From Saprospiraceae bacterium (GTDB lineage Bacteria > Bacteroidota > Bacteroidia > Chitinophagales > Saprospiraceae), in NCBI GenBank assembly GCA_029263015.1, contig JAJCYI010000088.1, positions 1-34,737 on the forward strand: a DNA stretch of 34,737 bases, written 5' to 3'. Below are positions 17,714 through 34,418 of this stretch, one piece after another. The notes below the pieces were generated by a model. It had not been told where the DNA came from. It saw only the letters and a program-made list of their open reading frames with translations, and searched no databases. The translations under genes were made by a program, and so were the position numbers. Within the stretch, counting starts at the first letter, position 1; every line of letters starts with the position of its first letter.

Positions 17714-17986
17714 ATGGAAACCACCACTATAATTGGATTTGTCGCTGCCGTGCTGACCACCAGTGCCTTTGTCCCACAAGCAGTGAAGACGTGGAAAACC
17801 CGCTCAACCAGCGACCTTTCCCTCCCGATGTACTTGATGATGTTTATTGGAATTTCCCTTTGGTTGATTTACGGACTATCGAAAAATGATTGGCCGATCA
17901 TCTTGGCCAATGGGGTCAGTTTTTGCCTGGCTTTTGTTATTTTGTATTTTAAAATAAGAGAAGTACTTGGCGTCAAAAACAAGTAA
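17714..17986 (+). CDS. SemiSWEET sugar transporter (PQ-loop)
   Basis: This 90-residue membrane protein has three hydrophobic helices (about 5-22, 37-56 and 62-82) and the PQ-loop signature TTSAFVPQAVKTWKTRSTSDLSLPMY (15-40). That is the layout of bacterial SemiSWEETs, which dimerise to carry small sugars such as sucrose or glucose down their gradient. WPIILANGVSFCLAFVILYFK matches the conserved third helix with its Asn. Length is normal (85-100). The stop codon TAA at 17984-17986 is also the first three bases of the palindromic element that follows. The gene lies 22 bases after the NTF2-like gene. Confidence 0.93.
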   Translation: METTTIIGFVAAVLTTSAFVPQAVKTWKTRSTSDLSLPMYLMMFIGISLWLIYGLSKNDWPIILANGVSFCLAFVILYFKIREVLGVKNK

Positions 17987-18146
17987 GTAGTCGAGGTTAA
18001 ATAATTTCCGAATTTTAGCGAGTTGATTTTTTCGTATAGCAAGGCAAAAAAAGTGAGCATAGCCTGGCTACGTAAACTTTTTATTAACGCAGCTATATGG
18101 AAAAAGCAGCCGATAAAAACGGAAAGTATTTAGGCTCGACTACTTA
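17984..18146. repeat. Long palindromic hairpin element, copy 1
   Basis: The terminal arms TAAGTAGTCGAG (17984-17995) and CTCGACTACTTA (18135-18146) are exact reverse complements. Pairing continues inward with few mismatches: TAAATA and TTTCCG blocks, then TATAGC with GCTATA, then AAAAAGT with ACTTTTT, and a centre GCATAGCCTGGCTACGT. The whole 163 bases can fold as one hairpin. Interior blocks (CTTTTTCC read on the minus strand, and GCATAGCC) recur in the elements at 18213 and 34256. No reading frame is visible. The left end supplies the SemiSWEET stop codon. Confidence 0.85.
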
Positions 18147-18212
18147 AATGCCAATAAACGTCATAAACGGCCAACTGCTGCTTTCGCACAAAAGTTTACC
18201 TTTGACACTCTT

Positions 18213-18400
18213 TTTAAGTAACAAAGGTTAATTATTTGGGTAAATTTTGAGGACAAGATTTTTTCGATAGTTTTCTTGAAAAAATCAGTGCATAGCCAAG
18301 TTAAGGACTTATTTTTTCGAGGAAAACCTGCCTGCCGGCAGGCAGGTAGCGGAAAAAGATATTCTCAAAATACCTAAATAATTAGGCTTTGTTACTTAAA
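18213..18400. repeat. Long palindromic hairpin element, copy 2 (contains a GC-rich palindrome)
   Basis: TTTAAGTAACAAAG (18213-18226) pairs exactly with 18387-18400. TAATTATTT, GGTA and TTTTGAG blocks then pair with little loss. Further in, GTTTTC...GAAAAAAT pairs with ATTTTTTCGAGGAAAAC. The interior GTGCATAGCC and AAAAAATC blocks match copies 1 and 3, but the terminal arms differ from theirs. One side is lengthened by the perfect palindrome at 18326-18347. It lies 66 bases from copy 1 and upstream of the secreted protein gene at 18474. Confidence 0.85.
18326..18347. repeat. 22-base perfect GC-rich palindrome
   Basis: The site is two 11-base halves, ACCTGCCTGCC followed directly by its reverse complement GGCAGGCAGGT. 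From memory, the CCTGCCTGCCGGCAGGCAGG palindrome is scattered in many bacterial genomes. Here it sits inside hairpin copy 2 and has no counterpart in copies 1 and 3, which suggests a later insertion. Confidence 0.85.
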
Positions 18401-27939: not shown

Positions 27940-28023
27940 GTAAAAAGGCAAAAGTAAAAAGGCAAAAGTAAAAAGCGGCGAATCCAGCAGGTTGCGCTTT
28001 TACTTTCTACTTTTGCCTTTTTA
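27940..28023. repeat. 14-base tandem repeats folded into a hairpin between divergent genes
   Basis: GTAAAAAGGCAAAA occurs at 27940-27953 and 27954-27967, with partial copies on both sides. The complementary stretch CTTTTGCCTTTTT follows at about 28010-28022, so the region can fold back. It separates the divergent GHMP kinase and oxidoreductase genes and makes the true kinase start uncertain. Confidence 0.75.
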
Positions 28024-29064: not shown

Positions 29065-29190
29065 TTATTCTACTTTAGCACTCTGATTCCTGTTGATCGG
29101 ACGGCATAGCCATCCGATCATATTCTCCCAAATCCGATCGGATGGCTATGCCGTCCGATCAACAGGAATCAGAGTGCTAAAGTAGAATAA
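29065..29190. repeat. Perfect 55-base inverted repeat
   Basis: 29065-29119 and 29136-29190 are exact reverse complements over all 55 positions, with a 16-base spacer (29120-29135). Each arm also contains an inner near-palindrome of 25 bases, GATCGGA...TCCGATC with one central mismatch. The element starts 11 bases after the oxidoreductase stop and ends 43 bases before the next start. No T-run follows it. The perfect identity suggests recent formation, gene conversion between arms, or strong selection. Confidence 0.93.
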
Positions 29191-34255: not shown

Positions 34256-34418
34256 TAGACTTGTTCGCAAATAAGGATCTTGAATATGAAAAAATCTTTT
34301 TCCGTCTGGCGCACTATTTTTTCTCGTCCGTAGCTACGGCTATGCACTCAAAAAAATAGACCATCAGACTAAAAAACCTAATTCTCATATCCTAAAATCT
34401 TATTTACGAACAAGTCTA
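34256..34418. repeat. Long palindromic hairpin element, copy 3
   Basis: TAGACTTGTTCG (34256-34267) pairs with 34407-34418 without mismatch. AAATAAG, ATATGA, GTCTG and CTATTTTTT blocks then pair inward. The centre is the perfect palindrome CCGTAGCTACGG. The interior blocks CTTTTTCCG, CGTAGC and GGCTATGC recur in copies 1 and 2, and the outer part recurs in the short form at 26991. Length is 163 bases, as in copy 1. It lies in the gap between mlaE and the right edge; 34419-34679 is AT-rich, with only a small GACGG/CCGTC hairpin near 34660-34675. Confidence 0.85.

Follow-up and report, generated by a model that had tools for sequence, protein, structure and literature searches.

Three palindromic elements in the window

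The window, a stretch of 34,737 nucleotides on contig JAJCYI010000088.1 of a Saprospiraceae bacterium, carries three long hairpin elements. Element A (17984–18146, plus strand, 163 bp, arm family TAAGTAGTCGAG) has a left arm that starts with TA (17984–18015, plus strand) and a right arm with TA at its end (18115–18146, plus strand). Its interior holds a conserved internal loop, with CAAGGC on the left side (18040–18045) and AACGCAG on the right (18086–18092), and an apical stem-loop, GCATAGCC..GCTACG (18057–18072), all on the plus strand. The first three bases of the element (17984–17986) also supply the TAA stop codon of a PQ-loop ORF (17714–17986). Element B (18215–18398, plus strand, 184 bp, arm family TAAGTAACAAAG) consists of 164 bp plus a nested 20-bp palindrome, CCTGCCTGCCGGCAGGCAGG (18327–18346, plus strand). 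Element C (34256–34418, 163 bp, arm family TAGACTTGTTCG) has its core on the minus strand, where the apical stem-loop GCATAGCC..GCTACG lies at 34329–34345.

The sequence-only reading had described three hairpins that fold end to end, with interior blocks held in common and outer arms that differ while each pairs with its own partner, and this description stands. An inverted-repeat search of the window gave arm complementarities of 84% (A), 90% (B), and 81% (C), and the end-to-end folds scored z values of −9.0, −13.6, and −10.3, respectively, with none of 200 shuffles as good in each case. All three elements have TA...TA limits; those proposed earlier hold for A and C, and element B, first drawn at 18213–18400, included two extra flanking bases per side. 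Once element C is turned to its minus strand, the shared blocks follow the same order in all three: every element has GGAAAAAG and the apical GCATAGCC, and A and B also have GATTTTTTCG in common. Elements B and C are without the CAAGGC/AACGAAG loop, so not all families keep all motifs.

A covariance model built from 28 elements of the same genome detects A, B, and C on both strands; apart from these, the window has just three rows at E ≤ 1, all weak and 60–69 nt long (best E 0.0045, at 27955–28023). Rfam 15 gave no window match at the gathering threshold; for eight related loci, its 16 matches at E ≤ 5 all fell short of that threshold and were mostly to microRNA models. Two further palindromes lie in the window. 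One, at 593–836, is also long and TA-ended (z −15.6) and is multicopy, with 94.5–96.6% matches at five contig ends, one of which adjoins a Y1 transposase gene (L096). The other, at 29065–29190 between two ORFs, is a near-perfect 126-nt hairpin with 60-nt arms 97% complementary and a partial relative in L131 (84% over 68 nt).

Copies, arm families, and hosts

The host genome (6.95 Mb in 245 contigs) holds many further copies. Element A recurs in at least 12 other places at ≥94% identity over at least 141 of 181 nt, element B in at least 8 at ≥94% over at least 180 of 204 nt, and element C in at least 5 at ≥93%. The corresponding blastn rows number at least 82 (A), 87 (B), and 60 (C), counting both strands and partial matches, with 40 candidates scored for each element. 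With the covariance model we obtained at least 149 rows at E ≤ 0.01 from 150 scored candidates, a figure that includes opposite-strand and cut-off matches and is not a census. Many of these rows sit at contig ends, and the repeats may therefore be what breaks the draft assembly.

We extracted 74 elements of this genome; stripped of the nested 20-bp palindrome by pattern matching, they fell into 18 clusters at 85% identity. Element length is ∼160–165 bp, and the arm families include TAAGTAGTCGAG, TAAGTAACAAAG, TAGACTTGTTCG, TAGTCTTGTTCA, TAAGTGCCACGTA, and TAGACATCTTTCC, with TAAGTACCTTGA, TAAGTAGGTG, TAAGTAGTCGGAC, TAAGTGCCTGAG, and TAAGTGCCTCGG as further ones. Altogether, 61 sequence families were distinguished among 100 elements read out (101 minus one containing N).

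Relatives carry the elements too. By the covariance model, with 72 candidates per genome scored, 20 of 40 sampled genomes, the host genome included, have a match at E ≤ 0.001, and 12 of the 14 genomes of the genus carry elements; a few rows in relatives (L188, L189) lack the core sequence. A search of named genomes with the core sequence pattern returned at least 112 stretches. Aquimarina sp. RZ0 accounts for many of these, and others come from Flammeovirga, Marinilabilia, Saccharicrinis, Mariniphaga, Saprospiraceae, and a gammaproteobacterial bin. We ran the model on 84 of these 112 loci and obtained 147 rows (both strands counted); among the 28 loci not submitted, most hairpins were short or of poor quality, but some looked good (e.g., Aquimarina copies L288, L297, and L330). 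From the pattern loci, 55 elements of 155–183 nt were read out, with boundaries taken from the model. Some other pattern matches, for example in Nitratifractor, scored weakly with the model and may be due to chance. Seven pattern matches in viral contigs were likewise read as chance, the reverse strand folding better in all seven, and a plasmid collection held no match for two superfamily members. The inner hairpin is conserved across genera, and further copies whose core is shared and whose arms covary, expected if the three hairpins formed a family, are thus found by the model in numbers in both the host genome and its relatives. The three hairpins belong to a high-copy superfamily of non-autonomous mobile elements.

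The nested palindrome of element B has a distribution of its own. This GC-rich 20-mer (CCTGCCTGCCGGCAGGCAGG or a one-base variant) lies at differing positions inside families A, B, and G; its carriers are 18327–18346 and L023, L024, L146, L150–L152, and L155–L157, and it is absent from B copies L040, L041, and L043. By eye, against copies without the insert, it is an exact insertion without a duplicated target, and it is apparently a still smaller mobile palindrome. Two family A copies, L015 1241–1619 (C219:51258–51636) and L149 (C96:18450–18759), are interrupted by unrelated small inverted-repeat elements; the one in L015 has CTGGACTTTTGACG at its ends, and a 9-bp duplication, TTCCATATA, is visible by eye.

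Strand-specific folding and the decay of inserted copies

In a set of 62 diverse elements, both partners have changed in 74 of 77 base pairs. Paired cells amount to 77.0%, against 53.9 ± 0.5% in shuffles and 41–51% (at most 50.5%) in a control with the structure slid, a control that flatters the structure because the latter was derived from folds of the same sequences. Since palindromic transposon ends alone would yield covariation, we used a strand test, in which a G·T mismatch on one strand is an A·C mismatch on the other. The core motif set the orientation; relatives were oriented with the model, whose call agrees with the motif wherever the latter occurs. Integron attC is a known instance of DNA that folds as one strand.

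The arms of the 61 families hold 135 G·U and 23 A·C mismatches (78 versus 9 when isolated ones are counted), and G·U is in excess in 49 families, with the reverse in 4 and ties in 8. Over whole elements, G·U exceeds A·C in 48 families, with the reverse in 11 and ties in 2, and the core strand is the more stable one in 60 of 61 families. These biases are to be read with the common ancestry of the core in mind and with a sample picked in part by a G·U-tolerant model. Within the whole core, G·U and A·C are close (184 vs. 155, p 0.13), A·C being concentrated in loop columns 57–63 and 75–78 and scarce at most helical positions. Conserved unpaired motifs include CAAGGC/AACGAAG in many families and an A·C mismatch adjoining TAGC..GCTA. 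The arms are not short of transversion mismatches (183 “other” next to the 135 G·U), which is unexpected under plain pairing selection. Fold-back copying from arm to arm, one origin that the sequence-only reading offered for the elements, may contribute, but it would give Watson–Crick arms, and on its own it leaves the G·U excess unexplained.

A simpler account would make these ordinary IS630-type MITEs, palindromic because the same transposase acts at both ends and because quasi-palindromes are corrected arm to arm, with the strand bias left by ancestry and by the way the elements were searched for. We judge this account unlikely. The recurrence of G·U at positions 13–15 in many families fits it, but the 61 families have largely different arms and still show the excess of 49 to 4.

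A second line of evidence on this account comes from comparing mutations private to single copies with those that have spread. In eight clusters of at least three copies from the host genome, private changes at Watson–Crick pairs comprised 20 G·U, 13 A·C, and 35 transversions, whereas variants shared by at least two copies comprised 7, 2, and 2 (pair-keeping G·U or not, shared vs. private, p 0.039). Zone-matched contrasts with the differences between families point the same way and speak against ordinary MITEs: the G·U:A·C ratio is 11:8 (private) versus 135:23 (between families) in the arms (p 0.0069) and 19:12 versus 284:60 in the helices without loop columns (p 0.0076). With loop columns included, the two do not differ (20:13 vs. 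319:178, p 0.71), which fits ordinary MITEs; the loop columns were set aside only after the data had been seen, and the private counts are small. A mutational strand bias as the source of the G·U excess is not supported by the private changes (25 C>T plus A>G vs. 31 G>A plus T>C). In inserted copies, motif sites have changed about as often as other sites (18 of 1344 vs. 86 of 7109, p 0.69). From these comparisons, inserted copies seem to decay regardless of the fold, and multiplying lineages seem to keep one strand foldable together with its motifs.

The same data bear on whether the elements are structured RNAs with a host function, such as in mRNA stability, termination, or as sRNAs, that were spread by transposition. 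Strand-specific folding and conserved unpaired motifs would fit such a role, as would the effects on mRNA decay reported for ERIC and Correia elements (PMC10969869, PMC2229807). Against it, motif sites of inserted copies change at the background rate, no Rfam match in the window or the eight related loci reaches threshold, and orientation to neighboring ORFs, called by a simple length rule, shows no significant bias (39 same-strand and 28 opposite among 155 copies, p 0.22). We regard a host function as very improbable. Of the earlier suggestion of structured RNAs, what stands is that one strand appears, from the mismatch pattern, to be selected to fold; support for structured RNA is limited to that. 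Because there is neither a private G·U bias nor an orientation bias, we infer that folding is needed for propagation and not for host function.

Insertion, transposases, and propagation

Most elements of the superfamily, and the families of the host genome, have TA at the start and at the end, and one interrupted gene allows an empty site to be reconstructed. In HyVt-560 (L282), a gammaproteobacterial bin, an element splits a thioredoxin gene. If the element is cut out and a single TA is left between its flanks, the result is a full-length thioredoxin that covers Pfam thioredoxin positions 3–102 of 103 and matches solved thioredoxins over equal lengths (e.g., 1skr_B, query 3–100, chain 5–102). 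With no TA, the frame shifts and the second half is by eye not thioredoxin-like; with two TAs, no open stretch exceeds the cut-off; were 5 nt left behind, the protein would gain one codon. Pfam matches nothing in the product of a second in-frame join (L176 in G002), and for an E copy within a gene (L085) no join stays open for 60 codons on both sides. ORFs spanning the site numbered seven, five, and four among 105 copies for zero, one, and two TAs, and because these counts favor no model, the claim of a TA duplication rests on the single thioredoxin case. Relatives in the genus offered no usable empty sites, their longer matches being too diverged (64–76%).

Aquimarina sp. RZ0 shows a TNA duplication instead. 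This genome has at least 40 copies with ends of the TACGATTTGTGATTA type, and all 40 scored copies are 100% identical; these were the best 40 of 471 first-look candidates, which suggests a much higher copy number. By this identity, the family looks to have been recently active. The same 3-bp TNA stands on both flanks in 28 of 30 copies, and it can be taken as a true duplication because its middle base varies among sites and yet agrees on both sides in these 28. TNA duplications are typical of some IS5-family elements. The difference between TNA here and TA elsewhere implies that transposons of more than one type carry the core. No arms-flanked transposase was found among the matches listed for this strain, which include at least 20 rows for PF01609; hairpin copies do lie near several of its transposase loci (e.g., L409).

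In the host genome, a profile search gave four DDE_3 rows, three above the cut-off, and two transposons with IS630-type DDE_3 and HTH domains have inverted-repeat ends that begin with TAAGTA. These ends agree with family G arms at 28 of 33 and 25 of 33 positions and with family D arms at 25 of 33 for both transposons; for each of the four ends, none of 2000 shuffles reached the best score. Families B, F, and J fit at 23–24 of 33 positions (the window's B arms vs. the second transposon, 23 of 33). Where a comparison is possible (families D and G and, more weakly, B, F, and J), the arms would thus appear from their sequence to act as transposase ends, and the match to the two transposons implies a behavior here like that of the RUP-type MITEs. 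No transposon with arms of family A, C, or E was found in this genome. Behind solitary family B and C arm ends lay just lone ends or internally deleted copies; L415, L421, and L425 are family C derivatives of ∼31–60 bp that consist of two arms without a middle. The proposal of the sequence-only reading that these could be non-autonomous mobile elements is supported by copy number, the TA duplication, and the ends held in common with IS630. TA ends, these common ends, and the RUP precedent would also suit ordinary IS630-type MITEs, but the inner hairpin is kept across genera and the core gave no model row in either transposon among the matches listed. IS630 as a universal driver is not supported: DDE_3 rows occur in just 4 of 14 genus genomes, although 12 of these 14 carry elements, and in 4 of 12 others picked because they carry elements, leaving 10 and 8 without such a row.

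Another candidate mover is a Y1 (HUH/RAYT) enzyme that would transpose a single-stranded hairpin; of the two TAs, one would then be the target dinucleotide and the other would belong to the element. Strand specificity and six Y1_Tnp rows above the cut-off in the host genome agree with this. It is nonetheless hard to credit, since some families have ends that match IS630 inverted repeats, the Aquimarina TNA is a true duplication, and no element arms were noticed beside Y1 loci among the matches listed.

We therefore favor, with a probability of roughly 0.63, a reading in which the elements are MITEs of one superfamily whose arms suit transposases and whose folded core strand is needed in cis for propagation. 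Under this reading, they would be non-autonomous DNA transposons of one deep superfamily, with the outer ∼33 bp on each side as terminal inverted repeats that suit a transposase and with an inner part that forms a shared rod-like hairpin with conserved unpaired motifs. IS630 (Tc1/mariner-like, TA target) would serve several families of the host genome, a transposase with a 3-bp TNA target would serve the Aquimarina elements, and such enzymes would presumably move the elements in trans. New copies would require, in cis, the folded strand bearing GCATAGCC, as RNA or single-stranded DNA. A bolder version, which we offer only tentatively, holds that the core hairpin is a separate mobility module, a folded single strand (RNA or lagging-strand DNA) that acts in cis and swaps outer arms to hijack unrelated transposases (IS630/TA, the TNA type, and perhaps others).

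That no named family fits, as the sequence-only reading had it, agrees with Rfam at its gathering threshold in the window and with the literature searched, mostly without subscription papers, in which we recognized no description of the superfamily; a search with sequence strings found no paper on the subject by title among the matches listed. Inverted repeats of Correia elements are alike between copies, whereas here the arms differ and the core is kept. In the passages concerned, RUP of Streptococcus pneumoniae is a 107-bp element with ∼110 copies and IS630-Spn1 as its proposed mover (PMC2229807, PMC3049150), and the present elements resemble it as short palindromes with TA ends and with ends like those of an IS630 in the same genome. 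RUP is described there as one family without other signatures of structure or function; the present elements have a single inner hairpin common to many arm families, and their folding is strand-specific. Correia/NEMIS of Neisseria (107- and 155-bp forms, with stem-loop transcripts) and ERIC of enterobacteria (127 bp, present in E. coli) share size, TA ends, and an end-to-end stem-loop with our elements, as far as descriptions go (PMC2229807). Blastn of superfamily member L181 against 20,395 E. coli records found nothing. A MITE in a group I intron of Ca. Thiomargarita nelsonii is alike by its description, with a long hairpin, TATA ends, and dispersal in the genome (PMC4853749). The RAYT-mobilized REP/REPIN sequences, described as 20–40 bp palindromes with a GTAG or CGTC tag (PMC3733652), differ from elements of ∼160 bp whose 61 families have no common end tag beyond TA. 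The passages on RUP, Correia, ERIC, and the Thiomargarita MITE describe neither interchangeable arms on a shared core nor strand-specific folding.

For the biology of these elements, the arrangement matters in several ways. MITEs are usually recognized by conserved ends that flank a changeable middle; here, the pattern is reversed, with the middle conserved across genera and the ends changing. Strand-specific pairing that appears between families and not among private mutations is evidence on the mobility step itself, and we know of no described bacterial MITE in which a hairpin step is strand-specific. The long-standing question of how MITEs amplify, and of a folded strand's part in this, becomes testable, and the 40 or more identical copies in Aquimarina sp. 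RZ0 point to a named strain with apparently recent activity. If the core is indeed a folded-strand module that exchanges its arms, it would be a parasite of many transposons.
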